The notes: generated from the letters alone by a model not told the origin. Numbered from the stretch's first letter, positions 1 through 61,031 are shown. The stretch is DNA of 64,000 bases from a virus (IMGVR_UViG_3300030339_000014:1-64000), one strand, 5' to 3'. Translations and numbers: made by a program.

Positions 1-126
1 ACTCAAGTAATTATTTATCTCATCAATTGTATAACCGTCTGTTTCTGTCCAATCAACTTTACCTATAACAAAATCTCCAATTTCGTATTTTTTTATTTTA
101 TTTTCAAAGTATTTTAAATGTTTCAT
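1..126 (-). CDS. Tagged small protein, 3' end beyond window
   Basis: This leftward reading frame starts at position 126 with MKHLKYFEN and runs off the left edge. The start is the tag seen on many short proteins in this window (M-K-x-L/I-K-x-F-E). After it comes YEIGDFVIGKV, which matches the GD(Y/F)V segment of several paralogues (for example at 3487-3759 and 6366-6674) and suggests a small SH3/KOW-like barrel. The expected C-terminal KFNL-type tag would lie outside the window. Function is not known from sequence. Confidence 0.75.
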   Translation of the reverse strand, partial: MKHLKYFENKIKKYEIGDFVIGKVDWTETDGYTIDEINNYLS

Positions 127-2585: not shown

Positions 2586-3113
2586 ATGACAGCAGGAAGA
2601 AATAGTATATCTAAAAATAAAACATGGAATACCCCACCTAAATTTGTAGAATTAATAAATAAAATGTTGGTTGAGGTTGAGTTAGATCCTTGTAGTAATG
2701 AGACTAGTATGATAGATGCTAAAATTAAATATATTTTACCAACAGATGGATTAAAAGAAAGTTGGAACTATAAAACGTTATTTGTTAATCCACCATACGG
2801 TTTTGATATAGAAAATAAAACAAAAATATATGATTGGATTAAAAAGGGAGTTGAAGCGAATGAAAATTATAAAAGTGAAATTTTGTATCTGATTCCAGTT
2901 GCTACTAATACTAAGCATTTTAAAGATTTGATATTCAAAAAAGCAAAAGGTTTGTGCTTTTTGAAAGATACAAGATTAAAATTTTGGAGTGAAGGTGTTG
3001 AAGATAAAAAAGGTGCTCCAATGGCTTGCTGCTTTATATATTTTGGGAATAATTATGAAAAATTTGATTTGTTATTTTCTGATTTTGGACAATGTTTTGA
3101 AATAAAATCATAA
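2586..3113 (+). CDS. DNA N6-adenine methyltransferase (phage Dam-like)
   Basis: The 175-residue protein fits the phage DNA N-6-adenine-methyltransferase family (Pfam Dam, PF05869). It has WNTPPKFVELI near the N-terminus, VELDPCSNE (an AdoMet-site region) and the catalytic (D/N)PP(Y) motif as FVNPPYG at about 69-75. It would methylate adenine in phage DNA, possibly to escape host restriction. No partner endonuclease is next to it. It ends convergently on the tagged-protein block, overlapping that block's last gene by 6 nt. Confidence 0.8.
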   Translation: MTAGRNSISKNKTWNTPPKFVELINKMLVEVELDPCSNETSMIDAKIKYILPTDGLKESWNYKTLFVNPPYGFDIENKTKIYDWIKKGVEANENYKSEILYLIPVATNTKHFKDLIFKKAKGLCFLKDTRLKFWSEGVEDKKGAPMACCFIYFGNNYEKFDLLFSDFGQCFEIKS

Positions 3114-3485
3114 ATTGAATTTATTTGCTGATAGTGACAAGTAATATTTTTCTGTTTCTTCTGGGGTGGCTTCTCTTAGATGTAATAAATCTTTTGATGT
3201 TAAAGATTTATTATATACGATTGTATTATTGAAAATAGTTTTAATATCTCCATGTGGATTATTGAAATCTATTGGATTTGCAAAATTCTTTCTTGGTTTT
3301 GGTGTTTCATCATAGCCGTTATCAAAAATATCATATAAACAATATAATTTTTGTGGTTCTATGTTCCTATGCTCAAATGGTTTAATTTTTCCAATTGCTA
3401 TATATCCAATAGTATCATAAATATATATTTTATTAAAGTCTATATCAATTGTAGATACATTTTCAAATGTTTTCAAATGCTTCAT
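3108..3485 (-). CDS. Double-tagged small protein
   Basis: This 125-residue protein starts MKHLKTFENVS and ends SANKFNL, carrying both tags of the family. Its body (IDFNKIYIYDTIGYIAIGK, then LYDIFDNGYDE) is clearly paralogous to the gene at 3761-4093, so the two arose by local duplication with one gene between them. It is the last gene of the leftward block 3108-6939 and is separated from its upstream neighbour by one base. Function is unknown; the N-tag resembles capsid-targeting sequences. Confidence 0.75.
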   Translation of the reverse strand: MKHLKTFENVSTIDIDFNKIYIYDTIGYIAIGKIKPFEHRNIEPQKLYCLYDIFDNGYDETPKPRKNFANPIDFNNPHGDIKTIFNNTIVYNKSLTSKDLLHLREATPEETEKYYLSLSANKFNL

Positions 3486-3486
3486 T

Positions 3487-3759
3487 TTATAAATTGAATT
3501 TATTTGTTGTTGTAGATATATTAGATATTTCTATATCTTCTGGTGTTGCTATTCTCATAATTTCGTCAGGATATATTTTAACAGTAGGATATTCATGATT
3601 GCCTTGATTTAAAAACTTACAAGTGTAACTACCAAAATCATTATCTGCTATGATTGTCATTATTTCTTCATCTATTTGATTGAATTCACTAATTACTAAT
3701 ACACAATCTCCAATTTTATATTCTTCATCAAATGTTTCAAATATTTTTAAATGTTTCAT
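3487..3759 (-). CDS. Double-tagged small protein, KOW-like body
   Basis: The 90-residue protein begins MKHLKIFETFDE and ends TTTNKFNL. The body contains YKIGDCVLVI, the glycine-aspartate strand motif seen in SH3/KOW-like barrels and in the paralogues at 5040, 6366 and 44728. It sits in a tightly packed leftward operon with one-base gaps on both sides. I infer a shared packaging or localisation signal at the ends with a variable central domain. Confidence 0.7.
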   Translation of the reverse strand: MKHLKIFETFDEEYKIGDCVLVISEFNQIDEEIMTIIADNDFGSYTCKFLNQGNHEYPTVKIYPDEIMRIATPEDIEISNISTTTNKFNL

Positions 3760-3760
3760 A

Positions 3761-4093
3761 TTATAGATTAAATTTGTTTGTTGATATTGCTAAATTGTAT
3801 TTTTCTGTTTCTTCAGTGGTAGCTTCTCTTATGTACAATAAATTTTCGATTGTTAGTTTCATGTAAAATTTTGATAAATGAACAAAATCTACATCACTAA
3901 GATATTTTCCAGTAGTACGAAAAATATCATCATAATCATTATCAAAAATATCTTTTAATTTATATGGTGTTTTTATATAGGTAAAAGGTTCAATTTTTCC
4001 AAATGCTACATATCCACTGTTTCCATATCTATATACTTTGTTAAAATCTATTTCTTTTTCTTTAATGCTTTCAAAATTTTTTAAATATTTCAT
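3761..4093 (-). CDS. Double-tagged small protein
   Basis: A 110-residue protein, MKYLKNFESIKE at the start and AISTNKFNL at the end. The central IDFNKVYRYGNSGYVAFGK and LKDIFDNDYDD segments match the protein at 3108-3485, showing a recent local duplication. IREATTEETEKY is also shared with that copy (LREATPEETEKY). Function unknown. Confidence 0.75.
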   Translation of the reverse strand: MKYLKNFESIKEKEIDFNKVYRYGNSGYVAFGKIEPFTYIKTPYKLKDIFDNDYDDIFRTTGKYLSDVDFVHLSKFYMKLTIENLLYIREATTEETEKYNLAISTNKFNL

Positions 4094-4094
4094 A

Positions 4095-4454
4095 TTATAG
4101 ATTAAATTTTTTTGATTGTATAATTAATGAAAGTTTATCAAAAACATCTTTTGATGTGTTAGCTTGATATACTATTTTATTATCTAAGTTTTTGAAACGG
4201 TAATATTCTCTATTACCAATCTTCCCCATTCTACGATCACTATAATTTTTTTCGTCTTGATATTCGTATAGTATCTTTAATGTTGTATCGTAATAATTGC
4301 TATTGGAATCATGTTTTAAAATTTTGAATATTACATATACTGGTTCTTCTCCTTCATTATAAAAATTTCTATCCCATCTATCTTCTTTGTTTAGTAAACA
4401 AAGAAGATATTTTTTTGGATTATTTAAGTTTTCAAATGTATTTAAATATTTCAT
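4095..4454 (-). CDS. Double-tagged small protein
   Basis: The 119-residue protein starts MKYLNTFENLNN and ends IIQSKKFNL. Its body (KKYLLCLLNKEDRWDR and following) does not resemble the other members, which fits a family with constant ends and variable middles. It is in the same leftward operon, one base from the gene downstream. Confidence 0.7.
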   Translation of the reverse strand: MKYLNTFENLNNPKKYLLCLLNKEDRWDRNFYNEGEEPVYVIFKILKHDSNSNYYDTTLKILYEYQDEKNYSDRRMGKIGNREYYRFKNLDNKIVYQANTSKDVFDKLSLIIQSKKFNL

Positions 4455-5036
4455 TTAGTCTATTATTTTCAATTTTGCACCGTCTTTTATTAAAGATTTT
4501 ATTTCATCTGTACTAATATTTTCTTTGAATTTAGATGTTTTCTTTTCTGTTTCTTTTAATATCCAATTGTTACCAGAATTTGATGTTTGATAAATATATG
4601 TGATATTATCTTGTGTTAATTTTATGGTTTTTGCTGTTAGTTTTTTGTAAAAATCTTCAACTTTACCTTTTATTAAATATATTTCAATAGGAAACCATTT
4701 ATCATCTTTGTAATATTGTAAAATTATATAATTTGGATTATCTAAAACTGTTTCATTTCTACTATAAAGAAAGAAAAATTTCATATCTATATCTTTTCTT
4801 AAAAAATTCTCAATTTCCATTGTTGTTTCCATTTCTCCTTTTTTAAGGTTTTGTTTAAAGAGTTGCTGATTGAAATCACTATCATCATATAAAAAATCTA
4901 TTGTTTTATTTATATAATCATCATTTGATAATCCAATTTTAAAGAAATCTACTTTGGTGTCATTTATGCTATTTAATAATCCATCAACATCAGTTGTTAT
5001 AGATTCTTTTATGTATTGTAAATATTTTTTTATCAT
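4455..5036 (-). CDS. N-terminally tagged protein
   Basis: The 193-residue protein starts MIKKYLQYIKES, a variant of the family N-tag that matches the T4 capsid-targeting pattern more closely (I-K-E before a small residue, as in T4 prohead protease sites of type I/L-x-E). It lacks the KFNL end (it ends KLKIID). The body has no domain I recognise. It is placed in the middle of the tagged operon. Confidence 0.65.
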   Translation of the reverse strand: MIKKYLQYIKESITTDVDGLLNSINDTKVDFFKIGLSNDDYINKTIDFLYDDSDFNQQLFKQNLKKGEMETTMEIENFLRKDIDMKFFFLYSRNETVLDNPNYIILQYYKDDKWFPIEIYLIKGKVEDFYKKLTAKTIKLTQDNITYIYQTSNSGNNWILKETEKKTSKFKENISTDEIKSLIKDGAKLKIID

Positions 5037-5039
5037 TTT

Positions 5040-5300
5040 TTATAAATTAAATTTATTTGTATTATATTCAATTTCAGATATAAATCTATCACATAGAAAT
5101 GTTCCTAAATTTTCTCCAATTGATTTGCCATTTATTTTACAGACATAATAATCATTTACATTTTTGAATATTTTTTTCACTAAATATCTCATTCCTTCAG
5201 TTAAGATTGAGTCTTCGTTATCTATACAAATAACATAGTCACCTTCTTTGAAATTTGAAGGACCTTTTTTTAAATTTTCGTATTTTTTAATGTATTTCAT
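5040..5300 (-). CDS. Double-tagged small protein, KOW-like body
   Basis: The 86-residue protein begins MKYIKKYENLKK and ends EYNTNKFNL. FKEGDYVICID is the GDYV strand motif shared with several paralogues and suggests an SH3/KOW-like barrel. It lies in the leftward tagged operon. Confidence 0.7.
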   Translation of the reverse strand: MKYIKKYENLKKGPSNFKEGDYVICIDNEDSILTEGMRYLVKKIFKNVNDYYVCKINGKSIGENLGTFLCDRFISEIEYNTNKFNL

Positions 5301-5318
5301 TATATGTTTAATAGTTTT

Positions 5319-5738
5319 TTAATCATTATAATTTTTTAATTTTTTAACTTTATCTTTAAATTTACCACCGCCTAACACAGATGTTGGTATGGTGCTACTA
5401 TATTGTAAAATTGAACATGTTATAAAATTTACACTAGCTCCATATGTTTGTTGATCTGGATGAGTCCACTCATCATCTTGTAATATCCACACATTCTCTC
5501 TTGGATAACAAGATATTATAAATGGATTTTCTGTAACTACTGATTTAACATAACGTCTATAATCAACAGTATCAGCAAATGTCATTGCTCTTTCTGGATA
5601 AAGTATTAAATTATCATTTTTACTTTCACGAACCAAATCATAGTAATGTTCTTCATTCGCATCATTTCCTTGAATAAAAACAAAACATTGTTCATTTTCC
5701 ATTATATTTTCTGATTCAAATTTTTTTAAATATATCAT
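5319..5738 (-). CDS. N-terminally tagged protein
   Basis: The 139-residue protein starts MIYLKKFESENIME (family N-tag) but ends KLKNYND without the KFNL tag. The body (CFVFIQGNDANEEHYYDLV, later WTHPDQQTYGASVNF) has no domain I recognise. It is in the same leftward block, with 18 bp to the gene downstream. Confidence 0.6.
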   Translation of the reverse strand: MIYLKKFESENIMENEQCFVFIQGNDANEEHYYDLVRESKNDNLILYPERAMTFADTVDYRRYVKSVVTENPFIISCYPRENVWILQDDEWTHPDQQTYGASVNFITCSILQYSSTIPTSVLGGGKFKDKVKKLKNYND

Positions 5739-5772
5739 ATATTTTAATTTTTTTTTACTTGAAATTATATAT

Positions 5773-6369
5773 TCACAAATTAAATTTATTTACATCTCTC
5801 TCAATTTCTAATGTTGAATATGCATCATCCAATGAATCGAACTCTTTTATTGTGTTCATATCTACATTGAAACTCATTATTGATTTGGGTGCGTTATTAA
5901 ATGTATCGTCAGAATATTTAAATATTTTATTTAATGTGTGATAATATTTAAAACGTAATTTTACAGTTGGAAATCTGTGTATGTATTTAATCCAAGGTTC
6001 TGTGTCAGTAACTTCATATAATCCAATATATTTTTCGTTTTCTCCTACTATGTATTTTTTATATACCTTAAAATTTTGTACATCATCATATAGATTAGAT
6101 ATTTTTATTAAACAATTTTTTAAGCTATCAGATTGATATATAACATTTAATGTATTTTTATTTAATCCAATACTGCCGCTTATTCTATCCAATCTTAATT
6201 CTGTTTTATCAAACCAATAAAAATATGACAAATATACATAATTAATTCTACTGGCTAATTTTACGCTACCTATATAAATTCTATCAGTTTCATCATCATC
6301 TACCATTACATAATCACTATGTACATCTTCGTATGATTCATTTAAGTATTGGTTATAGTCTTTTATCAT
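5773..6369 (-). CDS. Double-tagged protein
   Basis: The 198-residue protein begins MIKDYNQYLNES, the closest match in the block to T4 internal-protein capsid-targeting sequences, with L-N-E before a serine as a possible prohead-protease site. It ends ERDVNKFNL. The body is unknown. It overlaps its upstream neighbour by 4 nt. Confidence 0.7.
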   Translation of the reverse strand: MIKDYNQYLNESYEDVHSDYVMVDDDETDRIYIGSVKLASRINYVYLSYFYWFDKTELRLDRISGSIGLNKNTLNVIYQSDSLKNCLIKISNLYDDVQNFKVYKKYIVGENEKYIGLYEVTDTEPWIKYIHRFPTVKLRFKYYHTLNKIFKYSDDTFNNAPKSIMSFNVDMNTIKEFDSLDDAYSTLEIERDVNKFNL

Positions 6370-6674
6370 ATATTAAATTTTAGTGATGCTTTTTTTATTT
6401 CAAACTCTTCTATTTCTTCTTCAGTTAATTTTCTTTCAAAGAATTTTTCTTCTAAATAGTATTTGGATATTTTATCATCTTCAATTACTTCAAGAATATA
6501 ACGGTCATCATTTTTTATATTCAACCCTGTGATTTTAGCAAACTTAAAAACATCATTTGATATTTTACTTCTGTTGTTTTTCCAAAACTTTATAAACTCA
6601 TCTTTGAATAAAATATGATCACCAATTTCATAGTTTTTTTCATTGTTTTCTTCGAATAATCTGATGTGTCTCAT
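6366..6674 (-). CDS. Double-tagged small protein, KOW-like body
   Basis: The 102-residue protein starts MRHIRLFEENNE and ends KKASLKFNI. YEIGDHILFKDEF and YILEVIEDDKISKYYLEEKFF suggest a small beta-barrel like the KOW-type paralogues. It overlaps neighbours on both sides by 4 nt (ATGA-type coupling). Confidence 0.7.
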   Translation of the reverse strand: MRHIRLFEENNEKNYEIGDHILFKDEFIKFWKNNRSKISNDVFKFAKITGLNIKNDDRYILEVIEDDKISKYYLEEKFFERKLTEEEIEEFEIKKASLKFNI

Positions 6675-6939
6675 ATATTATATTTTCTTGTTGATAAAAA
6701 AATTTCCACATCATCTTTATTTCTTGAATGAAAATCAATATCTTTTATTTTCCACCATATTTCTTGGTTTTTACATTTTAATTTGATGTTTTGATTGTTG
6801 TTTGATAAGTTGTCTAATGTGATATATTTTTTAAAAAAAAATAATATCTTGGATGACATGATACATTAGATTTGAGTATGGTATAGTCACCTACTTCTAT
6901 ATTGTTGCTTGTACCTTCAAATGTTTTTATGTGTCTCAT
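6671..6939 (-). CDS. Double-tagged small protein needing a -1 frameshift
   Basis: Reading from the ATG at 6939 gives MRHIKTFEG, then IEVGDYTILKSN, and a stop at 6814. The -1 frame carries on with KKYITLDNLS and ends LSTRKYNI at 6671. Joined, they make a normal family member of about 89 residues with both tags. The switch point is a run of nine T then six A (on the coding strand) that contains a textbook slippery heptamer U UUA AAA. This could be programmed -1 frameshifting, a phase-variable run, a decaying gene or a sequencing slip. The downstream half also has its own ATG at 6859. Confidence 0.6.
6829..6835 (-). other. Slippery heptamer U UUA AAA
   Basis: On the minus strand, zero-frame codons TTA AAA are preceded by T, giving X XXY YYZ. 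A -1 slip here exactly joins the two halves of the tagged gene at 6671-6939. The surrounding T9A6 tract is also prone to replication or sequencing errors. Confidence 0.5.
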
Positions 6940-7008: not shown

Positions 7009-8163
7009 ATGATGGATGATATGAATGAAAAATTAGTATCAAATAAATTACCTCCTTATTTATTTACTGATCAAGCATTAGATAGAAGAGAAGATGTTTA
7101 TGCTCTTACTGAATTTGGTAAAATTGTCAATCGACTTTTTATAAGTGACCAAATATATTCTGATGATTTTTGGAAATATATAAAAAATAAATTCAAATTG
7201 AAGTCTGAAAATATTACATTTTTTTGTGATATACATTCTGATACTAAGAATAGAGTTGAAAAAAACTATAAGTATATTATTAAAGTGGAAAAACCATATA
7301 AGCTTATTATTCAATTTTATGATGAAGAAAAAATTGTTGATCCTCAAATATATGAGAATGAAGATTCTCAAAAAAATAAAATATCAGATTTGTTGATATA
7401 TTTTGATTCTGATGCAATTAAATATGTTGATGATATATCTAATGATCTTAGAAATATTGTATTTGTTCAGCCAATAAATAAAACATTTTTTATAATATCA
7501 TCAAATGCAATGGGTTATGAATTACGTCCAGTTACAATAAAAGATTATGATATACAAATTGGATTGAATTATGGAGATTCTTTTGTTGATAAGCATAAAG
7601 AAATATTAGATAAAATTAAGAATAATAAACATGGCTTATTTTTATTTCATGGATTGGAAGGTTGCGGAAAAACTATGTATTTGCGTAAGCTTATTTCTGA
7701 ATTAGCGAATGAAAAAACTATAATTTATGTTCCATCTTTTTTAATGATGGATATTGCAAATCCTGGTTTGATATCTTTTGTGTCAAAATTTAAAAATTCT
7801 ATTTTATTGTTGGAAGATGCAGAATCTATATTAACTTCTCCTCAAGAAGAAAGAACTCAAGCTGTTAGTAATATTTTGAATATTAGTGATGGATTGTTAA
7901 ATGATCATATGGATATGCAAATAATAGCAACTTTTAATGTAGATAAAAAAATAATTGATAAAGCATTACTTAGAAAAGGAAGACTTATGGTGGATTGTAA
8001 ATTTAAAAAATTGACATCTAAGCAAGCAACTAAATTATCTGAATATATAGGATTGAATAAAAAATATGATGAACCATCTACACTAGCTGAGATTTATGAA
8101 GAAATTGATGGTAATAAACAGTTGATTGATTCAGATAATGATACTAATAAAATAGGATTTTAA
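7009..8163 (+). CDS. AAA+ ATPase
   Basis: The 384-residue protein has a C-terminal AAA+ module. Its Walker A motif is GLEGCGKT (215-222), Walker B is SILLLEDAES, the sensor-1 region is MQIIATFNVD, and an arginine-finger-like LLRKGRLMVDCKF follows. The N-terminal 190 residues match nothing I recognise. Layout and length resemble Bcs1/ClpA-like remodelling ATPases of large phages. It is a single-gene rightward unit, divergent from the tagged block and closed by a terminator at 8168-8199. Confidence 0.75.
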   Translation: MMDDMNEKLVSNKLPPYLFTDQALDRREDVYALTEFGKIVNRLFISDQIYSDDFWKYIKNKFKLKSENITFFCDIHSDTKNRVEKNYKYIIKVEKPYKLIIQFYDEEKIVDPQIYENEDSQKNKISDLLIYFDSDAIKYVDDISNDLRNIVFVQPINKTFFIISSNAMGYELRPVTIKDYDIQIGLNYGDSFVDKHKEILDKIKNNKHGLFLFHGLEGCGKTMYLRKLISELANEKTIIYVPSFLMMDIANPGLISFVSKFKNSILLLEDAESILTSPQEERTQAVSNILNISDGLLNDHMDMQIIATFNVDKKIIDKALLRKGRLMVDCKFKKLTSKQATKLSEYIGLNKKYDEPSTLAEIYEEIDGNKQLIDSDNDTNKIGF

Positions 8164-43149: not shown

Positions 43150-43491
43150 ATGAAAAAAATTAAAACATTTGAAGAACAACAGAATTATTTAGGTGTAGAA
43201 GATTATCGAAAAGAAATTGTAAAAAGTGATGGTATTAAAAAATCTATTTTTTTTAATGTTATTAAAAGTGGTAAGATTTCTGGTTTGACAGATGAAGAAA
43301 TAGAAGAATTTAAAAAATTTATTTTATCTTTAGAAAAACATGATGCTATTATGATTTTATTAAAATTTATTGATAATAATATTAAAAATAATAGTATTGG
43401 ATCTAATAATAAGATGAGCTTATTTTTATCAGATGATAGATTTTGTGAATTATATAATTATGCAATTGAAAGTTTTAATAAGTATAACTAA
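43150..43491 (+). CDS. N-terminally tagged small protein
   Basis: The 113-residue protein begins MKKIKTFEEQQN, a family-type N-tag. The C-terminus (FNKYN) only loosely recalls the C-tag. The middle is helical. A host-type -7 box precedes it, so unlike most structural genes it may be expressed early. Confidence 0.55.
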   Translation: MKKIKTFEEQQNYLGVEDYRKEIVKSDGIKKSIFFNVIKSGKISGLTDEEIEEFKKFILSLEKHDAIMILLKFIDNNIKNNSIGSNNKMSLFLSDDRFCELYNYAIESFNKYN

Positions 43492-44245: not shown

Positions 44246-44282
44246 AAAAAGAGAAATAATTTAATTATTTCTCTCTTTTTTT
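44246..44282. terminator. Terminator, repeat of the 41163 hairpin
   Basis: Shares an identical 23-bp hairpin core with the terminator after the sheath gene. It lies between convergent genes. Confidence 0.85.
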
Positions 44283-44682
44283 ATACATTGTATTTTTTTG
44301 TGTGTTTTTCTAATTCTAATTTTTCCTCCAATTCTCCTTTTTTATGATTGTATAAAGTGAAAGTTTGAGTTTTATTTATCTTTCTATTTGTTAAACCATA
44401 CCATATATTATTCATATTAACTAATATATCGTATTCATAAACTGAAGAATATTCATCAACTAATTTAATGTCTTTACATCTTCCAGTTATATTTTTTGCT
44501 GTATATATATAATTATCATCTTCATCATAAATTCGATAACATTGAAATGTTATTATATTATTTAATATCATTTCTTTAAGTAAATCAAAAAAATCAATAT
44601 CATATGTTAGACAATCATCCATCAATTCTTTAATTGATATCTCTGTATTTTTTAAGTCTTCAAAAGTTTTTATGTATCTCAT
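44281..44682 (-). CDS. Double-tagged small protein
   Basis: The 133-residue protein starts MRYIKTFEDLKN and ends KHTKKYNV, with both family tags. The middle (IKELMDDCLTYDIDFFDLLK) is not similar to the other members. It is convergent with the preceding gene and divergent from the tagged gene at 44728. Confidence 0.7.
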   Translation of the reverse strand: MRYIKTFEDLKNTEISIKELMDDCLTYDIDFFDLLKEMILNNIITFQCYRIYDEDDNYIYTAKNITGRCKDIKLVDEYSSVYEYDILVNMNNIWYGLTNRKINKTQTFTLYNHKKGELEEKLELEKHTKKYNV

Positions 44683-44727
44683 AACAATATATATAAAAAT
44701 AAAATTATTAAATTAATATATAATGAT

Positions 44728-45087
44728 ATGAAACATTTGAAAATATACGAAGACTATGAAGAATCAGATATTAAAATCGGAAATTATGTTGTACTTAATA
44801 TAAAAAAAGAAGATATTATTTGGTACGGTCAGAGTAATGACAAAAAGAAAAAGATAGTAGAATTTACCAATAATACAATAGGAGAGATTGTTAATATAAA
44901 AGAAGGCTATTATGAAAAGGAGATAACAGTTAAATATAATGACATACCATTTGATATAGATTTCTATTTTGGTAAAGAGAAATCTATTGTTGTAAATTCA
45001 AAAGAAATTTTTGATGTTTCTGATGAAAAACAAGAATTAATAGATAGATATAATTTAAGACAAAATGCAAACAAATTTAATGTGTAA
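44728..45087 (+). CDS. Double-tagged small protein, KOW-like body
   Basis: The 119-residue protein starts MKHLKIYEDYEESD, has IKIGNYVVLNIKKED (the G-(D/N)-Y-V strand motif) and ends NANKFNV. It is divergent from the tagged gene at 44281 and 2 bp upstream of another at 45090. Confidence 0.7.
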   Translation: MKHLKIYEDYEESDIKIGNYVVLNIKKEDIIWYGQSNDKKKKIVEFTNNTIGEIVNIKEGYYEKEITVKYNDIPFDIDFYFGKEKSIVVNSKEIFDVSDEKQELIDRYNLRQNANKFNV

Positions 45088-45089
45088 AT

Positions 45090-45620
45090 ATGAAGTTGAA
45101 AAGATTTAATGAAAGTATAGAAGATGATGATAATACCTACTTAGATATACTATATGATAAGATTAAAAATGATAAAAAAACCATTAATGATTTCGAATTT
45201 TACGTGGATAGTAGTTCAGGCTCTTTTGTATGGAGTTCTAATGATTTTGTGATATATGCCACTCCATATTGGGAAGATGGACAATTTCTTCCTATAAATG
45301 TAATTAACTTTGATGGAGATGAAATATACGATAAACAAATAAAAATGAAAATTCTTAATTCTCAAAAATCTATTGATGATACCATAAAATACTATTACGA
45401 AATAATAGATTCATTGACTTTAGATTTAAATAAAATTTCAGAATTGATAAAAGTATCAGAAATTATATTAAATAAATTACCAAATATAACTGTTGGTGAT
45501 CTTACTGTGTCATCAGTTGATAATATAAAAACACTTTCAATTAACAAATCACTTGAAATATATGATTTCTTAATTGATAAATATCCTGAACTATTTATAA
45601 TATCAAAATATAATGTATAA
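45090..45620 (+). CDS. Double-tagged protein
   Basis: The 176-residue protein begins MKLKRFNESIEDD, closer to the capsid-targeting form (F-N-E-S), and ends FIISKYNV. The middle (SGSFVWSSNDFVIYATPYWE) is unknown. It forms an operon with the gene at 44728. Confidence 0.65.
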   Translation: MKLKRFNESIEDDDNTYLDILYDKIKNDKKTINDFEFYVDSSSGSFVWSSNDFVIYATPYWEDGQFLPINVINFDGDEIYDKQIKMKILNSQKSIDDTIKYYYEIIDSLTLDLNKISELIKVSEIILNKLPNITVGDLTVSSVDNIKTLSINKSLEIYDFLIDKYPELFIISKYNV

Positions 45621-48755: not shown

Positions 48756-48784
48756 AAAATCACTATTTTTAATAGTGATTTTTT
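48756..48784 (+). terminator. Rho-independent terminator
   Basis: AAAATCACTATT and complement with a TTT loop, followed by Ts that merge into the TTTTATATATAA motif. Confidence 0.8.
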
Positions 48785-48792
48785 ATATATAA
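48781..48792 (+). promoter_or_regulatory. TTTTATATATAA motif
   Basis: An exact copy ending only 3 nt before the ATG at 48796, too close for a -10 box unless the mRNA starts inside the gene; it may act in translation here. Confidence 0.35.
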
Positions 48793-48795
48793 CAT

Positions 48796-49233
48796 ATGTT
48801 TAAAAAATTTAAAGATTATATATCAAATAATAGTACGGCTTCTTCTAATATCGAAGAATCTCAGGAAGAACTTAATTTTATGTTAAATAATTCAATTCGT
48901 ACCTGTGATTATTGTGACTTCAACTATTCAATAAATAAAGGTGCTGATATTAATAATATTACTATTGGAGGAAAGGATAAAGATGACGATGATTATTATG
49001 TATCTCCTTTGATATTGTGCATTATATATGATAGAATAAAGATGTTTAAAAAACTCATTGATTTGAATGTTGATTTAATTAATGTTATATCTGATGATGA
49101 TATTTATGATTATATTATGAAAATGATGACAGTTGATAATAGAAAAAATATCATAAAATACATTATTGAAAAACATCCAGATTTCATGAAAGATTATGAA
49201 ATCAGGCAAAACTCAAAAAAGTATAATATTTAA
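48796..49233 (+). CDS. Double-tagged protein with ankyrin-like body
   Basis: The 145-residue protein starts MFKKFKDYISNN, a capsid-targeting-like tag, and ends QNSKKYNI. The body has ankyrin-like helices (INKGADINNITIGG, YVSPLILCIIYDRIKMFKKL, IDLNVDLINVIS). Such repeats usually bind proteins. Confidence 0.65.
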   Translation: MFKKFKDYISNNSTASSNIEESQEELNFMLNNSIRTCDYCDFNYSINKGADINNITIGGKDKDDDDYYVSPLILCIIYDRIKMFKKLIDLNVDLINVISDDDIYDYIMKMMTVDNRKNIIKYIIEKHPDFMKDYEIRQNSKKYNI

Positions 49234-49310: not shown

Positions 49311-49526
49311 ATGTCAAAAATAATGAATTTTCAAAAATTTTTAAGTGAAGCACTTGCAATGACATCCGATGAATTATCTGTTATTGATGACATGACAGAT
49401 AATATTGATTGGAAAGAAGGAGATAAATTTGCATTTATAGATTTTAATGGTATAAAAGATATACCTATTAGTATTAGTAATAAAAAAAGTAGAAGAGATT
49501 TAATTGATATTAAGAATAAAAACTAA
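49311..49526 (+). CDS. N-terminally tagged small protein
   Basis: The 71-residue protein starts MSKIMNFQKFLSEALAM, strikingly like T4 capsid-targeting sequences, with L-S-E before alanine as a possible prohead-protease site. The body (WKEGDKFAFIDFNG) has a GD-containing strand. It lacks the KFNL end. Confidence 0.6.
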   Translation: MSKIMNFQKFLSEALAMTSDELSVIDDMTDNIDWKEGDKFAFIDFNGIKDIPISISNKKSRRDLIDIKNKN

Positions 49527-49545: not shown

Positions 49546-50028
49546 ATGGTGAAATTTGATGAGTATATAGTTGAATTCAAAAAATATCAAGAAAAAGAGG
49601 TAAAATCTCATAAACTTTCTGGTGTTGTTCTTATATGTAATAATAAGATATTATTAGTAAGACCAAAAAAATTCAAGAAAAAAGAGAAAAAGTGGTCTAT
49701 TCCAAAGGGACATATTGAGGATGATATGAGCAAAATAAAAACAGCTATCACGGAATTAAGGGAAGAAGCTGGAATAAAGATCGCAAAGAAACAAATTAAT
49801 TCTAGTGATAAATTTGTTATTGAGTATCAAAAATCTGGAGTTAATAAAAATTTAACTTGTTATGTGGTAGATATTGAATATATAGATATCAACATAAAAT
49901 TAGTTAATGATATGATTTTGAAGAATTTTTTAAAAAATGAGATTGTAGAAGCTGGATTTTTTACAAAAAAAGCTGCTGAAGAACTTATAGAAGATAATCA
50001 ATTAGATATACTAAAAATTTTAAAATAA
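49546..50028 (+). CDS. NUDIX hydrolase with N-terminal tag-like extension
   Basis: The 160-residue protein has a NUDIX box (GHIEDDMSKIKTAITELREE, then AGI). Two consensus positions deviate (M for the first E, T for R), but the ELREE metal-binding core is intact. NUDIX enzymes cleave nucleoside diphosphates linked to other groups, including NAD-related and cap-like substrates. The N-terminus MVKFDEYIVEFKKYQEKE resembles the tag region, so the enzyme might be packaged; this is inference. Confidence 0.75.
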   Translation: MVKFDEYIVEFKKYQEKEVKSHKLSGVVLICNNKILLVRPKKFKKKEKKWSIPKGHIEDDMSKIKTAITELREEAGIKIAKKQINSSDKFVIEYQKSGVNKNLTCYVVDIEYIDINIKLVNDMILKNFLKNEIVEAGFFTKKAAEELIEDNQLDILKILK

Positions 50029-53703: not shown

Positions 53704-54546
53704 ATGAATATAATAACATACTGTGAATATTTAACAGAAAATTCACAATCTTCTATATCTGAGTTCTTGAAATCTCAATATCATAAAATATTTCCTGAAC
53801 CTACTGAGTCCCTAAATACATTATTCTCATCTTTCATTAAACGATTAGATATTGATAAAAATGTATCTGTTTTATATCAGAGTTATTTGAAAAATAGTCA
53901 ATCACTTACTCAAAATGAGATAAATAATTCTAAAACTATTATTGATGTCGATAAAATATTAACTGAGAGTATTAAATATTTTTATTTTTCTTTAATTCCA
54001 ATTGTTAATAGATTACAAACAGATGAATTTACTGTAAGTGAAATATTTAGTAGATCAAGAGACAAGAGATTGATGACATTAATGAGCTATTCAGAAGATA
54101 AATTTTCAAATGCTGTGTCCACCTATGCTTCTGCTGTTATTGAGGAAATTAAAACTTCAGCAAATATAACAACTGGTACTACAACACCAATAGCTAATAC
54201 TACTGTTACAGAAGCTATAATATATAGAATAAATTATAAAATTGATAAAATACTAGAAGCTGATGATACTTCTACTATAACTAATTTGATAAATTATAAA
54301 AAAGCTGTTATAAATTGGATCAATATAACGTTGTATGATTTAATAAAACCTAAACTTCAATTATTAAGGCAGTTAGGCTTAAATACTAGCGATAGTGTAG
54401 ATCAATTGGCGAATCAAATGAAAGGAACTACCAATGAAAATGCAAAAAAAATGATTCTTAATAAAATTTTTAATATGAATAAAGAAGAATTACAAGCATT
54501 GACTAATACATTAGGATTAACTAAAGAACAATTAGGAGATTTATAA
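53704..54546 (+). CDS. Hypothetical helical protein, tag-like start
   Basis: The 280-residue protein starts MNIITYCEYLTENSQSS, again with L-T-E as in capsid-targeting leaders. It is largely alpha-helical with two threonine-rich linkers. The end (MNKEELQALTNTLGLTKEQL) is a helix pair. It follows the gene at 52409 by 11 bp and may be co-packaged. Confidence 0.55.
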   Translation: MNIITYCEYLTENSQSSISEFLKSQYHKIFPEPTESLNTLFSSFIKRLDIDKNVSVLYQSYLKNSQSLTQNEINNSKTIIDVDKILTESIKYFYFSLIPIVNRLQTDEFTVSEIFSRSRDKRLMTLMSYSEDKFSNAVSTYASAVIEEIKTSANITTGTTTPIANTTVTEAIIYRINYKIDKILEADDTSTITNLINYKKAVINWINITLYDLIKPKLQLLRQLGLNTSDSVDQLANQMKGTTNENAKKMILNKIFNMNKEELQALTNTLGLTKEQLGDL

Positions 54547-54561
54547 AAATAATAAATAAAA

Positions 54562-54939
54562 ATGGAAATACAAAAATTTGAAGCATATCAATATAGAGGC
54601 AAAAAATTAGATGTTATAAATAGAAAAGAATTTATAAATGAACTCAATGATGTTTTTACTTCTGAAATGTTTGGATATAATAATAATGGTACAACTTATC
54701 ATCCTAATACAGAAACATTAGATATTTATTTACATGATGATAAAACAGGAGAAGATAAAACAATAAGATTGGATTTATCTGACATGGGAATAGAAATAGG
54801 ACACACTGATTGGTATGATGAAGATGAACAAGAAGACGATGGAGACTTAGGTGTATTTGTACCAGAAAGAAATTTAGATTTGTCAATAACCAAAGCTTAT
54901 AAGTCTCAAAAAAAGGATATGAATAAATTTAACATATAA
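54562..54939 (+). CDS. Double-tagged small protein
   Basis: The 125-residue protein begins MEIQKFEAYQYRG and ends KKDMNKFNI. The body (VINRKEFINELNDVFTSEMF) is unknown. It closes the rightward block 52409-54939. Confidence 0.65.
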   Translation: MEIQKFEAYQYRGKKLDVINRKEFINELNDVFTSEMFGYNNNGTTYHPNTETLDIYLHDDKTGEDKTIRLDLSDMGIEIGHTDWYDEDEQEDDGDLGVFVPERNLDLSITKAYKSQKKDMNKFNI

Positions 54940-56317: not shown

Positions 56318-56393
56318 ATAGTAGTATAGGAGTCAGGCTTATCTAGCTATCCTTGGACGATAGAGCACGTGAGTTCAAATCTCACCTACTATA
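56318..56393 (+). tRNA. tRNA-Pro (TGG)
   Basis: Perfect acceptor (ATAGTAG/CTACTAT), anticodon stem CTATC/GATAG with loop CTTGGAC, T-arm GTGAG-TTCAAAT-CTCAC. The D-stem is short (TAG/CTA). A37 instead of the usual G37 is noted. Confidence 0.75.
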
Positions 56394-56398
56394 CAAAT

Positions 56399-56477
56399 GG
56401 TCTTGTAATGGCGGAGTTTTCTAAACTCTATGTGCATAATGGAATGAAAAATGAGGGTTCGACCCCCTCCTGGACTA
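56399..56477 (+). tRNA. tRNA-like, anticodon TCT (Arg?), no D-arm
   Basis: A near duplicate of 56213-56291. Acceptor GGTCTTG/CTGGACT, anticodon arm GGAGT-TTTCTAA-ACTCT, T-arm GAGGG-TTCGACC-CCCTC. The anticodon stem differs from the copy at 56213 by paired changes, supporting the fold. The 23-nt variable region is identical in both copies, and the D-arm is missing. Confidence 0.5.
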
Positions 56478-56486
56478 CAATGAATA

Positions 56487-56548
56487 TCAGGTGTATGTGG
56501 TAGTGTCTCGGGATCCGACACAAGAAAGTTCGACTCTTTCTCACCTGA
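56487..56548 (+). tRNA. Short tRNA-like element, identity unclear
   Basis: Acceptor TCAGGTG/CACCTGA and T-arm GAAAG-TTCGACT-CTTTC are good. The middle arm GTGTC/GACAC encloses a 9-nt loop (TCGGGATCC) and there are only about 7 nt where the D-arm should be. At 62 nt it is shorter than normal. It may be degenerate or a minimal tRNA; the amino acid cannot be assigned. Confidence 0.35.
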
Positions 56549-56556
56549 CAATAAAT

Positions 56557-56632
56557 AGAGTAGTAGACCAATTGGCAGGTCGCTTCATTTGGGATGAAGA
56601 CATTACTGCGGGTTCGATGCCCGTCTACTCTA
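56557..56632 (+). tRNA. tRNA-Pro (TGG)
   Basis: Full cloverleaf: acceptor AGAGTAG/CTACTCT, D-arm GACC/GGTC, anticodon stem CTTCA/TGAAG with loop TTTGGGA (G37 as in proline tRNAs), T-arm GCGGG-TTCGATG-CCCGT. Confidence 0.85.
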
Positions 56633-56683
56633 CTGATTATCAAGTAGTTATACTTGTGTTCTTTGAAATGATGATACAAAAAT

Positions 56684-56758
56684 GGGGGCGCATGTACCAT
56701 GGCTCGGCGATGAACACTTGCAATGTTCGTGTGGTGGATTCAATTTCCATCGTCTCCA
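56684..56758 (+). tRNA. tRNA-Ala (TGC)
   Basis: Acceptor GGGGGCG/CGTCTCC (with G-T pairs), anticodon stem GAACA/TGTTC with loop CTTGCAA, T-arm GTGGA-TTCAATT-TCCAT. The D-arm pairs poorly. Confidence 0.75.
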
Positions 56759-56804
56759 CAATTTTTAACGTTCAGTTCAAAATGACTTTTTTCCACTTTT
56801 TTAT

Positions 56805-56816
56805 TTTTATATATAA
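56805..56816 (+). promoter_or_regulatory. TTTTATATATAA motif (putative phage promoter)
   Basis: An exact copy 14 nt upstream of the HNH endonuclease gene inside the tRNA array. Confidence 0.4.
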
Positions 56817-56830
56817 AAATAAAAATAATT

Positions 56831-57733
56831 ATGAAGTGTAAAAATTGTGGCAATGAAATAGCTGAAAATAGAACATATTGTTCTTTGAGTTGTAGAAATA
56901 TTTATGTTAATAAAAATTTAAGAGATTATACAAAAGTAAAAGATACTGCTGATAAAAAAAGAAAAATTAAAGAAGATTTATATTATGTTAATCCTAAACA
57001 TTGTAGACAATGTGACAATGTTATAAGTTTTGAAAATAAGAGATTAGACTTCTGCAACCATAGTTGTTCTGCTTCTTATACAAATAAGGGAAACAAAGGA
57101 AGAAAACATAATTTGAGTGATGATGGTAGAAAGGCTTTAATTGAATCTGCATATAAGAATTTTAATAATCCTGATATAATAAGAAAAGATTGTTTCTTAA
57201 AAGAAAAAGAATATTATTATGAAGAACCAAAGAAGTGTTTAAATTGTGAAAAAATATTAGAATTTAAAAAAAGAAATAATATTTTTTGTAATATTAATTG
57301 CAAAAAAGAATATTATAGTAAAAATTTAGAAGATTTTAAATTATATAAATCATTAACCAAATTTAAATTTCATTTAAAATATTATAGTGATGAGTTTGAT
57401 TTTATTTTGATTGAGAATAATGGTTGGTATAAAGCTAAAAATAATGGAGATAATGTTGATGGTGTTAGTAGAGATCATATGATATCTGTAAAAGATGGAT
57501 TTAGAAAATTGATAAATCCTTTGTTAATTTCTCATCCATCAAATTGTGAATTGATTATTAATAGAAAAAATCAAAGCAAATCTGACAAATGTTCTTTAAC
57601 AATAGAAGAACTTTTAAATAGAGTAGAAATTTTTGAAATTAAATATGGTAAATATTATGAAAAAGATATCAAAACATATATAGATTTGAATGAGTTGAAA
57701 GATATTTATAATGAATATAAATATTGTAATTAA
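56831..57733 (+). CDS. HNH homing-type endonuclease in tRNA array
   Basis: The 300-residue protein has three zinc-finger-like pairs (CKNCGNEIAENRTYCSLSC, CRQCDN...CNHSC, CLNCEK...CNINC) and a C-terminal HNH core (GVSRDHMISVKDGF, then LLISHPSNCELIINRKNQSK). It splits the tRNA array between tRNA-Ala and tRNA-Gly and has its own TTTTATATATAA motif. Confidence 0.7.
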   Translation: MKCKNCGNEIAENRTYCSLSCRNIYVNKNLRDYTKVKDTADKKRKIKEDLYYVNPKHCRQCDNVISFENKRLDFCNHSCSASYTNKGNKGRKHNLSDDGRKALIESAYKNFNNPDIIRKDCFLKEKEYYYEEPKKCLNCEKILEFKKRNNIFCNINCKKEYYSKNLEDFKLYKSLTKFKFHLKYYSDEFDFILIENNGWYKAKNNGDNVDGVSRDHMISVKDGFRKLINPLLISHPSNCELIINRKNQSKSDKCSLTIEELLNRVEIFEIKYGKYYEKDIKTYIDLNELKDIYNEYKYCN

Positions 57734-57735
57734 AT

Positions 57736-57806
57736 GCGAATGTAGCACAATGGTAGTGCATCTGTTTACCAAGCAGAGGATGACAGTTCGATTCTGTTTA
57801 TTCGCT
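57736..57806 (+). tRNA. tRNA-Gly (ACC)
   Basis: Full cloverleaf: acceptor GCGAATG/TATTCGC, D-arm GCAC/GTGC with GG in the loop, anticodon stem TCTGT/GCAGA with loop TTACCAA, T-arm GACAG-TTCGATT-CTGTT, discriminator T as in glycine tRNAs. A34 is unusual for bacterial glycine tRNAs. Confidence 0.8.
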
Positions 57807-57817
57807 CAATAAAAAAT

Positions 57818-57902
57818 GCGATAGTCGCCTAGTGACCGATGGCGCTGGGTTGCCAATCCAGTAAGCGAAAGCACACCGTGAGTTTGAATCTCATCTATCG
57901 CT
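57818..57902 (+). tRNA. Class II tRNA-Gly (GCC), long variable arm
   Basis: Acceptor GCGATAG/CTATCGC, D-stem GCC/GGC, anticodon stem CTGGG/TCCAG with loop TTGCCAA, T-arm GTGAG-TTTGAAT-CTCAT, discriminator T. The 16-nt variable region includes a GCGAAAGC mini-hairpin. Glycine identity bases (G1, C2, G3, C35, C36, U73) sit in a serine/leucine-like body. Confidence 0.75.
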
Positions 57903-57904
57903 CA

Positions 57905-58375
57905 AATTTAAAAATTAATAAGTATGAAAGAGCTAAAAGCATAACTCCTACTCAAAAGAAGAGTAGGAAATATTCAGATTCATTCAATGAATCATTTAAA
58001 TTTTATTTAGATTGTTACAGAAAAATTGGATTAGATTTTTCTGGTACATACAATCCAATTATAAAAAATGATATCAATGGTGATAGTTGCAAAGAGATTT
58101 TCAAAAAATTTGAAAATGGAGAATTCAAATTTAAAGAAATATTAACTAAACACCCAAATATAGTATTTGGTGTTATAAAAGGAAAGAAAAGTTGGGGATT
58201 ACATGTTAAAATGTGGTCAGAAGGAATTTCAGAAGGTTCATTTAGAAAAATAGAAGTCCTTGAGGAATTTTATGAAAAAAATGTCATAATACCTGATTCT
58301 TTTATGAGAGAGTTTAATGAATCAGTAATAAGACACACTAAAAAGTATCTAGATAATTATAGAATAAATAAATAA
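57905..58375 (+). pseudogene. 5'-truncated or oddly started hypothetical ORF
   Basis: The open frame directly after the tRNA encodes a coherent C-terminal protein (FNESFKFYLDCYRKIGLDFS, FGVIKGKKSWGLHVKMWSEG, IRHTKKYLDNYRINK) but has no in-frame ATG, GTG or TTG between the tRNA and the conserved-looking part. An ATG at 57924 is in another frame and stops after six codons. It looks like a gene that lost its 5' end when the tRNA arrived, or one read by frameshift. Function unknown. Confidence 0.45.
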
Positions 58376-58383
58376 ATTAACAA

Positions 58384-58469
58384 GCGAGTGTCGCATAGCG
58401 GTCGATTGCACTAGCCTTCCAAGCTAGAAAGATAATATCACATCTGGGGTCCGACTCCCCATACTCGCT
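58384..58469 (+). tRNA. Class II tRNA-Gly (TCC), long variable arm
   Basis: Acceptor GCGAGTG/TACTCGC, D-stem GCA/TGC with a serine-like loop TAGCGGTCGAT, anticodon stem CTAGC/GCTAG with loop CTTCCAA, 17-nt variable region with GAT/ATC pairing, T-arm TGGGG-TCCGACT-CCCCA, discriminator T. Confidence 0.75.
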
Positions 58470-58515
58470 CATAATCAGATAGTTATAATAATTATAACTT
58501 AGATATTTTAGATTT

Positions 58516-58586
58516 GGCCCTGTGGCGTAACGGAAGCGTATGACTATTACAAGGTTTGGGAGATGGTTCGATTCCATCTGGGGCTA
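58516..58586 (+). tRNA. tRNA-Val (TAC)
   Basis: Acceptor GGCCCTG/TGGGGCT (G-T pairs), anticodon loop ATTACAA closed by GACT/GGTT, T-arm GATGG-TTCGATT-CCATC. The D-arm is weak and the outermost anticodon pair is a mismatch. Confidence 0.65.
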
Positions 58587-58600
58587 CTTTTTTTGAATAT

Positions 58601-58675
58601 AGGATTTTAACTCAGTTGGTTCAGAGTATTTGTTTAACAAGCAAAAAGTCATTGGTTCGATTCCAATAAGTCCTA
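58601..58675 (+). tRNA. tRNA-Val (AAC)
   Basis: Full cloverleaf: acceptor AGGATTT/AAGTCCT, D-arm ACTC/GAGT, anticodon stem TTTGT/GCAAA with loop TTAACAA, T-arm ATTGG-TTCGATT-CCAAT. A34 is unusual for bacterial valine tRNAs. Confidence 0.8.
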
Positions 58676-58682
58676 CAATAAT

Positions 58683-58754
58683 GCCGATGTAGCTCAGTGA
58701 TAGAGCGCCACCTTAGTAACGTGGATGTCGTGAGTTTAATCCTCACCCTTGGCT
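58683..58754 (+). tRNA. tRNA-Thr (AGT)
   Basis: Acceptor GCCGATG/CCTTGGC (one mismatch), D-arm GCTC/GAGC, anticodon stem CCACC/CGTGG with a C-C pair next to loop TTAGTAA, T-arm GTGAG-TTTAATC-CTCAC. A34 again. Confidence 0.75.
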
Positions 58755-58762
58755 CAATAAAA

Positions 58763-58837
58763 CGGGATGCGATCCATAGTGAGAGGTTACTGGTATTGGA
58801 CACCAGGTTATTGCAAGTTCGAGTCTTGTCATTCCGA
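58763..58837 (+). tRNA. tRNA-Pro (TGG)
   Basis: Acceptor CGGGATG/CATTCCG with C1-G72 and A73 as in proline tRNAs, anticodon stem CTGGT/ACCAG with loop ATTGGAC, T-arm GCAAG-TTCGAGT-CTTGT. Confidence 0.8.
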
Positions 58838-58847
58838 CAATAAAAAT

Positions 58848-58920
58848 GCTTTAGTAGTTCAATTGGTAGAACGTTACCCTTGTAAGGTAAATGTTGAGGG
58901 CTCAAGTCCTTTTTAAAGCT
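58848..58920 (+). tRNA. tRNA-Thr (TGT)
   Basis: Full cloverleaf: acceptor GCTTTAG/TTAAAGC, D-arm GTTC/GAAC, anticodon stem TTACC/GGTAA with loop CTTGTAA, T-arm GAGGG-CTCAAGT-CCTTT. Confidence 0.85.
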
Positions 58921-58928
58921 CAAATAAT

Positions 58929-59012
58929 GCACAATTCGCATAGTGGCTATTGCTCTGGCTTTGTAACCCAGCATCCGAAAGGATATCATCAGTTCGAGTC
59001 TGATATTGTGCT
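58929..59012 (+). tRNA. Class II tRNA-Thr (TGT), long variable arm
   Basis: Acceptor GCACAAT/ATTGTGC, D-stem GCA/TGC, anticodon stem CTGGC/CCCAG (C-C next to the loop TTTGTAA), T-arm ATCAG-TTCGAGT-CTGAT, discriminator T. The 16-nt variable region forms a perfect ATCC-GAAA-GGAT hairpin, typical of serine/leucine tRNAs, not threonine. Confidence 0.75.
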
Positions 59013-59061
59013 CAATTAAATAAACTTTTATAAAAATTATATCTATATTTATTATAAATAA

Positions 59062-59093
59062 TTTGGTATTATGAGAATAAATAATTACTTTTA
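59062..59093 (+). promoter_or_regulatory. Host-type promoter (TTTG-N20-TACTTTTA)
   Basis: Good two-box match 24 nt upstream of the last tRNA gene, in a 105-bp gap without other features. Confidence 0.6.
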
Positions 59094-59117
59094 TAACATA
59101 ACACAATGAAAAATTAT

Positions 59118-59189
59118 GCCTTCATAGTTAAAGGGATATAACCAAAAATTTCTAATTTTTAATTCCTGGTTCGAGTCCAGGTGAGGGTA
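59118..59189 (+). tRNA. tRNA-Arg (TCT)
   Basis: Full cloverleaf: acceptor GCCTTCA/TGAGGGT, D-arm GTTA/TAAC, anticodon stem AAAAA/TTTTT with loop TTTCTAA, T-arm CCTGG-TTCGAGT-CCAGG. It reads AGA, the main arginine codon here. Confidence 0.85.
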
Positions 59190-59190
59190 C

Positions 59191-60204: not shown

Positions 60205-60537
60205 TTACAAATTAAATTTATTTCCAGCCTGCAATAATTCGAATTTTTCTGAAAATTCGAATGTTTCCACTTCATATTCTTCGTAATTAAATTCTACAGG
60301 TTCCAGATAATATTTACCATTCCAATAATTCAGCACATCTTCATAATCTATCATATCTTTGCAATCATAATTTTCATTATGTGATTTATCATAATCGTGT
60401 ATGAATGTTATCGAATATTTTATGCAACTTTCTTCACTATCAAACAATTTTACTTTCACTGTATCTTCATCAAAATTTTGTATAGTATATACAAAATATT
60501 TTTGACTATTATTTTCGAATAATTTGATATGTTTCAT
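60205..60537 (-). CDS. Double-tagged small protein
   Basis: The 110-residue protein starts MKHIKLFENNSQ (L-F-E, an I/L-x-E site) and ends LQAGNKFNL. The body (KYFVYTIQNFDEDTVKVKLF) is a small beta-rich domain. It overlaps the tagged gene upstream by 4 nt. Confidence 0.7.
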   Translation of the reverse strand: MKHIKLFENNSQKYFVYTIQNFDEDTVKVKLFDSEESCIKYSITFIHDYDKSHNENYDCKDMIDYEDVLNYWNGKYYLEPVEFNYEEYEVETFEFSEKFELLQAGNKFNL

Positions 60538-61031
60538 ATATTGAATTTTTTTGTGTTTATATAGAAATCAAACTCTATTTCAATTTCTTTGATAATATTA
60601 TCTAATATAGACAAATCATTTTTGTCTATTATTTTTATATCGTGAACATTTGATCTATCCCAATAAATGTAAGCATCTATTGTTTCATACTTATTAAGTG
60701 CTGATGTTATAATATCATAAATATCATTATTTTTGCTTTTAAAATCATCATAATTTCTTCTTTCCAAGATCACACATAGTTCCAATCCTTCTGATCTGTG
60801 ATATGTTAATAATCTTATTTTGAATAAATCTGTATATTTATATCTATATGATATAGTAATTTCATTAGAATCATCAAAATATATTTTAACTGATGATCCT
60901 TTGAAGTCATCTAATTCTTTTAGTCTAAATAGAATATCTTTTAATTTTTCTGAAAAATCTTTAAATATATTATTTTTGACTTTTGAACTATCATGTTTTA
61001 ATAATGTTTCAAACTGTTTGATATATTTCAT
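60534..61031 (-). CDS. Double-tagged protein
   Basis: The 165-residue protein starts MKYIKQFETLLKHD and ends YINTKKFNI. A helix (about 25-45) is followed by a beta-rich region (SVKIYFDDSNEITISYRYKY). It is divergent from the lysozyme at 61079. Confidence 0.7.
   Translation of the reverse strand: MKYIKQFETLLKHDSSKVKNNIFKDFSEKLKDILFRLKELDDFKGSSVKIYFDDSNEITISYRYKYTDLFKIRLLTYHRSEGLELCVILERRNYDDFKSKNNDIYDIITSALNKYETIDAYIYWDRSNVHDIKIIDKNDLSILDNIIKEIEIEFDFYINTKKFNI

Follow-up and report, generated by a model that had tools for sequence, protein, structure and literature searches.

Short proteins with shared ends in one clade of giant T4-like phages: a capsid-targeting-like N-terminal tag and a conserved C-terminal tag

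Tagged genes in the window and in related phages

The window analysed here is the first 64 kb (64,000 nucleotides) of the 96,316-base virus record IMGVR_UViG_3300030339_000014 (G000), and it encodes a set of short proteins that share a start, called here the N-tag, and an end, called here the C-tag. We defined a C-tagged open reading frame (ORF) as one ending in K-[FY]-N-[LIV], and the expected counts were taken from the internal rate of this tetrapeptide in the proteins of each record. Fifteen ORFs of the window end in this way (those with an entry in the C-tag column of Table 1). All the genes listed in a preliminary description of the locus, which had counted at least 14 such proteins, exist. 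Ten of them are indeed packed between positions 3108 and 6939, two (4455 and 5319) having an N-tag without a C-tag. The N-tag pattern given in that description is present but too narrow, with C-tagged proteins also starting with MITNFKIFE, MKTYQQFNE, MKSFDQYINEN or MKIEKFNE.

Relatives were retrieved with two probes, the AAA gene next to the tagged block and a DNA pattern. The whole 96-kb record contains 18 C-tags (0.04 expected), a 330-kb record of a relative 98 (0.18 expected), a 235-kb record 39 (0.07 expected) and a 214-kb record 55 (0.18 expected), and the records of further relatives contain 28, 13 and 9 (0.07, 0.03 and 0.03 expected, respectively). The co-occurrence of the two tags in related genomes, which had been put forward as a check, was found in every record counted, with p from 3e-5 to 1e-44, the last value being that of the 330-kb record. 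IMG/VR contains at least 119 stretches that match a combined DNA pattern running from a C-tag into the next N-tag; the single match among 257 Gb of GTDB genomes lay on a bacterial contig that encodes no tagged ORF. With one sequence taken per cluster, the C-tag consensus is E(-14), E(-11), [LI](-10), [ND](-7), [TAS](-6), [NK](-5), K, [FY], N, [LI]-COOH. The C-tag is absent from the sampled parts of the huge phages LR756501, LR756504 and LR745206 and of PTm1.

The clade is one of very large T4-like phages, in which dozens to about 100 small, otherwise unrelated proteins share both ends. UvsX, a DnaB-like helicase or ribonucleotide reductase was found on G000, G001, G003 and G009, and a polymerase, UvsW and gp32 on G005 and G007; given this split of the replication genes, the contigs are probably different portions of larger genomes.

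Several other features of the window were noted. The tagged gene at 6671-6939 is broken into the frames 6671-6859 and 6814-6939, is intact in six relatives (L003-L008), and has its break close to a T/A homopolymer run. A BCS1-like AAA ATPase gene (7009-8163) adjoins the tagged block, as it does tagged genes in several relatives, and ten predicted tRNA genes are clustered at 56318-59190. The element TATATA lies near the start, mostly at -10 to -13, of 48% of tagged operon heads, from which leaderless mRNAs are predicted, versus 7% of other operon heads, where it peaks near -27. The portal, sheath and protease genes have the same element at -25 to -27. An argument for late promoters based on TATATA was dropped, as the element is also found upstream of some replication genes.

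Table 1. Tagged genes and upstream elements mapped in the window
Position	Strand	N-tag	C-tag	Remark
1..126	-	MKHLKYFENK		5' part of an SH3-like gene that runs off the window edge; end EKFNL in an intact relative
3108..3485	-	MKHLKTFE	SANKFNL	last gene of the operon
3487..3759	-	MKHLKIFE	TTNKFNL	
3761..4093	-	MKYLKNFE	STNKFNL	
4095..4454	-	MKYLNTFE	QSKKFNL	
4455..5036	-	MIKKYLQYIKES		full-length N-tag, without C-tag
5040..5300	-	MKYIKKYE	NTNKFNL	
5319..5738	-	MIYLKKFE		short N-tag, without C-tag (end KNYND)
5773..6369	-	MIKDYNQYLNES	VNKFNL	full-length N-tag with C-tag, a rare combination
6366..6674	-	MRHIRLFE	SLKFNI	
6671..6939	-	MRHIKTFE	STRKYNI	single gene broken into two frames
43150..43491	+	MKKIKTFEEQ		no true C-tag (end FNKYN)
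44281..44682	-	MRYIKTFE	TKKYNV	
44717..44722	+			TATATA element 11 nt upstream of the 44728 ATG; predicted promoter, predicted leaderless mRNA
44728..45087	+	MKHLKIYE	ANKFNV	SH3-like; structure predicted
45090..45620	+	MKLKRFNES	ISKYNV	N-tag variant
48784..48791	+			TATATATA element 10-12 nt upstream of the 48796 ATG
48796..49233	+	MFKKFKDYIS	SKKYNI	ankyrin-like
49311..49526	+	MSKIMNFQKFLSEA		full-length N-tag, without C-tag
49546..50028	+	MVKFDEYIVEF		full-length N-tag, without C-tag
53704..54546	+	MNIITYCEYLTEN		full-length N-tag, without C-tag
54562..54939	+	MEIQKFEAY	MNKFNI	N-tag variant
60205..60537	-	MKHIKLFE	GNKFNL	
60534..61031	-	MKYIKQFE	TKKFNI	

The N-tag and the T4 capsid-targeting leader

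The N-tag occurs in two forms. The full form, M-K-H-[IV]-K-L-F-E-x-F-[IVL]-N-E with the core [YF]xx[YF][ILVM]xE, is found in many T4-like contigs without the C-tag; the core lies within the first 14 residues of 155 of the 1164 proteins of such contigs, with 231 occurrences in total. Most N-tags of the window's clade have the short form, M-K-[HY]-[LI]-K-x-[FY]-E. Cleavage sites had been proposed in several of these short tags, but the protease site (I/L/V/M)-x-E is present in only 25 of 89, near the background of 22%, versus 145 of 176 in the related lineages that lack a C-tag.

The same core is repeated in a scaffold protein of the phage itself. The gene at 93462-95807 of G000 (outside the window; 13063-15408 of L002) encodes a fused prohead scaffold and protease that is 58% identical to its counterpart in the 735-kb uncultured huge phage LR756501, and the core is repeated in it 13 times, mostly as YSEYIAE or near it, versus 0.2 times in shuffles. 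Across the loci examined, 15 ORFs had at least four copies of the core, and 13 of these were scaffold-proteases, a few others of which fell below the four-copy limit; six from lineages without the C-tag have 5-13 copies. In addition, a tagged gene of G000 (93065-93373) was mapped between portal and protease, the position of genes 67 and 68 in T4.

In T4, the core was found in the first 12 residues of three of 314 ORFs, namely IPII, IPIII and gp61.1. It also forms the FGSFLTE of gp23, ending at Glu65, the known cleavage point. When the 314 ORFs were ranked with a model of the full form, IPI, IPIII and IPII came 16th, 6th and 11th; with the short-form model they came 3rd, 27th and 32nd, a partial similarity. 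The T4 gp61.1 (18966-19130 of L191) starts MKTFKEFIKED, resembling an internal-protein leader, and its sequence makes it a possible unrecognised internal protein of T4. In a separate lineage (L017 and L082), about eight adjacent genes carry a homogenised N-tag peculiar to it (MKHIKLFEDYSDEELRDLIG) and no C-tag.

An independent test was provided by the cyanophage S-CREM2, whose virion proteome has been published from mass spectrometry (PMC10665884). With the deposited gene starts, the core is present in the first 16 residues of a SAM (S-adenosylmethionine) hydrolase, an APH/ChoK kinase and a cytidylyltransferase, all three detected in virions, and in none of the 167 undetected genes (p=0.013; p=0.0098 with our own gene calls). 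The cytidylyltransferases of three other cyanophages, S-SM1, P-SSM3 and S-CAM7, have the core at residue 4, while the homologues of SP27, Erwinia phage SNUABM_47 and Paride have no leader and start at the enzyme. The S-CREM2 gp12 Cas9-like nuclease (7704-10313 of L328), also detected in virions, has FASFMAE near residue 18. A tblastn search of phages with the 20-residue N-tag found nothing, as expected for a query so short.

Because the motif is shared and the proteome is independent, capsid targeting by the N-end of these proteins is well supported, and we regard the N-tag as a form of the capsid-targeting sequence (CTS) known from T4. The relationship had been suggested in the preliminary description and is upheld by the T4 ranking and motif test, the scaffold-protease repeat and the packaged enzymes of S-CREM2. 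As in T4-type internal (CTS) proteins, a prohead protease and a scaffold are encoded and the leader is common to proteins with unrelated mature parts. The full form fits the T4 CTS motif, the short form only in part; as the latter has no conserved protease site, short-tagged proteins are not classed as strict CTS proteins.

The C-tag and its proposed part in the loading of head cargo

The two forms of the N-tag differ in their tie to the C-tag. Within genomes having the C-tag, 177 short N-tags go with a C-tag and 25 do not, versus 10 and 34 full N-tags, respectively (odds ratio 24, p=4e-17; the counts are proteins, not independent events). A leucine-rich repeat (LRR) family has a short N-tag and a C-tag here, and an N-tag without a C-tag in other lineages. 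Because the short N-tag goes with the C-tag and has no conserved protease site, we propose that the C-tag stands in for the leader's second half, which is the weakest step of the argument. No earlier description of the tags was found in the open-access literature, subscription papers and preprints lying outside the search. The second, C-terminal signal of the preliminary description is real and, within that literature, undescribed: the element is conserved, and its role in packaging is something we infer.

We hold it moderately probable that the tagged proteins are cargo of the phage head and that the signal for loading them is divided between the two ends of the protein. The N-tag would be a CTS of the T4 internal-protein type, and since it is similar to the sequence repeated in the prohead scaffold of the same phage, the tagged protein would co-assemble with the scaffold core. 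The fused S77-type prohead protease would then digest the scaffold, the cargo staying in the head. Related T4-like lineages would use a full, cleavable leader, aromatic-x-x-aromatic-[ILV]-x-E, and most cargo of the clade a shortened N-tag together with the C-tag E-x-x-E-[LI]-x-x-[ND]-[TAS]-[NK]-K-[FY]-N-[LI]-COOH, the latter supplying the missing half of the targeting signal. Packaging in this clade is suggested by the tag sequences, and by analogy with T4 Ip1-3 the variable middles may be delivered into the host along with the DNA. The wider idea, that the loading of head cargo has become a general means of delivery in this clade, in which a label with one half at each terminus sends roughly a hundred different, interchangeable proteins per genome into the head for injection, is plausible and is offered tentatively.

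Several observations weigh against head cargo with a split loading signal. The short N-tag has no conserved prohead-protease site, the 25 short N-tags without and the 10 full N-tags with a C-tag depart from the rule, a few proteins of the huge phage LR745206 carry a short N-tag but no C-tag, and no receptor of the C-tag was identified. Moreover, the proteins detected in virions are full-tag proteins of T4 and S-CREM2 (PMC12373910, PMC10665884), none coming from this clade, and the S-CREM2 numbers are small. In a rival reading, the N-tag targets the capsid and the C-tag has another task: it may, for example, bind a receptor of phage or host once the cargo is injected, keep the cargo near the portal or control its turnover. 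Such a role would fit the limitation of the C-tag to one clade while N-tags are widespread, the aromatic-x-aliphatic-COOH end ([FY]-N-[LI]-COOH matches the PDZ class II ligand pattern, hydrophobic-x-hydrophobic-COOH), and the ankyrin, LRR and SH3-like modules among the middles, as in adaptor families. However, an unrelated post-injection role does not predict the strong tie of the C-tag to the short N-tag or its rarity on the full one, and we consider this reading rather unlikely. Another possibility, that the two tags serve host takeover inside the cell and not the head, the tagged proteins being adaptors bound by one phage machine such as the AAA ATPase at 7009-8163, seems to us improbable; the ATPase gene adjoins the tagged block in several relatives and the middles are interaction modules, but the full N-tag has the motif of the scaffold repeat and of the proteins packaged by T4 and S-CREM2, and AAA homologues are found in other phage lineages too.

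In a further reading, the members would form one fast-diverging paralogous family, with the ends as structural parts of a common fold. After both ends were trimmed, 335 distinct proteins fell into 156 BLAST clusters, an upper bound on the number of families, since BLAST may hide remote homology, and with a few spurious matches; the SH3-like (61) and ankyrin (26) clusters are the largest, the LRR cluster (5) being among the smaller ones. Such concealed homology would speak for one family, as would the diversity of the SH3-like cluster (about 28% mean identity). However, the AlphaFold2 models of two members are confident and differ in fold: the SH3-like member has a mean pLDDT (predicted local distance difference test score) of 86.6 (residues 1-5 below 50, last block 68), with weak SH3/tudor-barrel matches in Foldseek, and the ankyrin member one of 90.5 (residues 1-7 below 50, last block 59), with clear ankyrin matches. 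In both models the ends are of low confidence, lie outside the core and, as first described, are separable from the fold. The LRR members represent a third fold and the full tag is also carried by cyanophage enzymes, so that we rejected a single fold as highly improbable. Pfam and PHROGs searches with window members gave nothing convincing (a DarA_C match was discarded at E=0.12), and one SH3-family member had no match when searched against phages. Alternatively, the ends might be DNA-level features, either the start/stop context of overlaps or the borders of cassette recombination, with the peptides as by-products. Overlapped genes do share an ATGA junction, all 129 of those overlapped in this way ending in TGA, and their last codons are biased to xxA because the overlap with the next gene forces an A at that place. 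Nonetheless, the codons of the C-tag vary between genes, the 75 C-tagged genes of the clade that have no same-strand gene within 20 nt retain the tag with freer codons, and it is the amino acids of the ends that are conserved, with F and Y, and L and I, replacing one another. The C-tag is therefore a protein feature, a DNA element being ruled out as its sole cause and barely credible as an explanation of the ends, although an exchange of cassettes at these ends may still play a part.

Implications and relation to known systems

The full N-tag motif gives a simple rule: in T4, and in one cyanophage with a published virion proteome, it singles out packaged proteins. The rule can therefore serve to predict which proteins are injected by uncultured T4-like phages, most genes of which have no assigned function. 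Should the C-tag belong to the signal, it would be a label for capsid loading that has not been described before. Candidate anti-defence proteins can also be drawn from the lists of cargo.

Encapsulin cargo-loading peptides are short C-terminal peptides that direct unrelated proteins into a protein shell. Their sequence is unrelated to the C-tag, and they serve here as an analogy only for its possible mode of action, no search having been aimed at encapsulins. The giant phages SPN3US and phiKZ resemble the clade in their size, in their prohead protease and, on the reading proposed here, in loading many inner-head proteins through an N-terminal signal, in their case propeptides cut by that protease; several of these propeptides exceed 100 residues, and the portion of the source consulted describes no scaffold-like repeat motif or C-tag (PMC5694885). 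The T4-like cyanophage S-CREM2 shares the full N-tag at residue 4, on the SAM hydrolase, kinase and cytidylyltransferase found in virions, but has few cargo proteins and no C-tag (PMC10665884).

The closest likeness is to T4, in which a short N-terminal leader is carried by otherwise unrelated small internal proteins (PMC12373910, PMC3012670). This leader is all that Ip1-3 have in common; T4 injects these proteins, which then inhibit type IV restriction enzymes (PMC12373910). The motif aromatic-x-x-aromatic-[ILV]-x-E is shared by the T4 leader and the full N-tag, and a prohead protease is present in both systems. In contrast, the N-tags of the clade are mostly shortened and without a conserved protease site, and T4 has no C-tag. 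Finally, three cargo genes are found in T4 (at least ten are reported in related T-evens, PMC12373910), whereas about 100 putative ones are found in one record of the clade.

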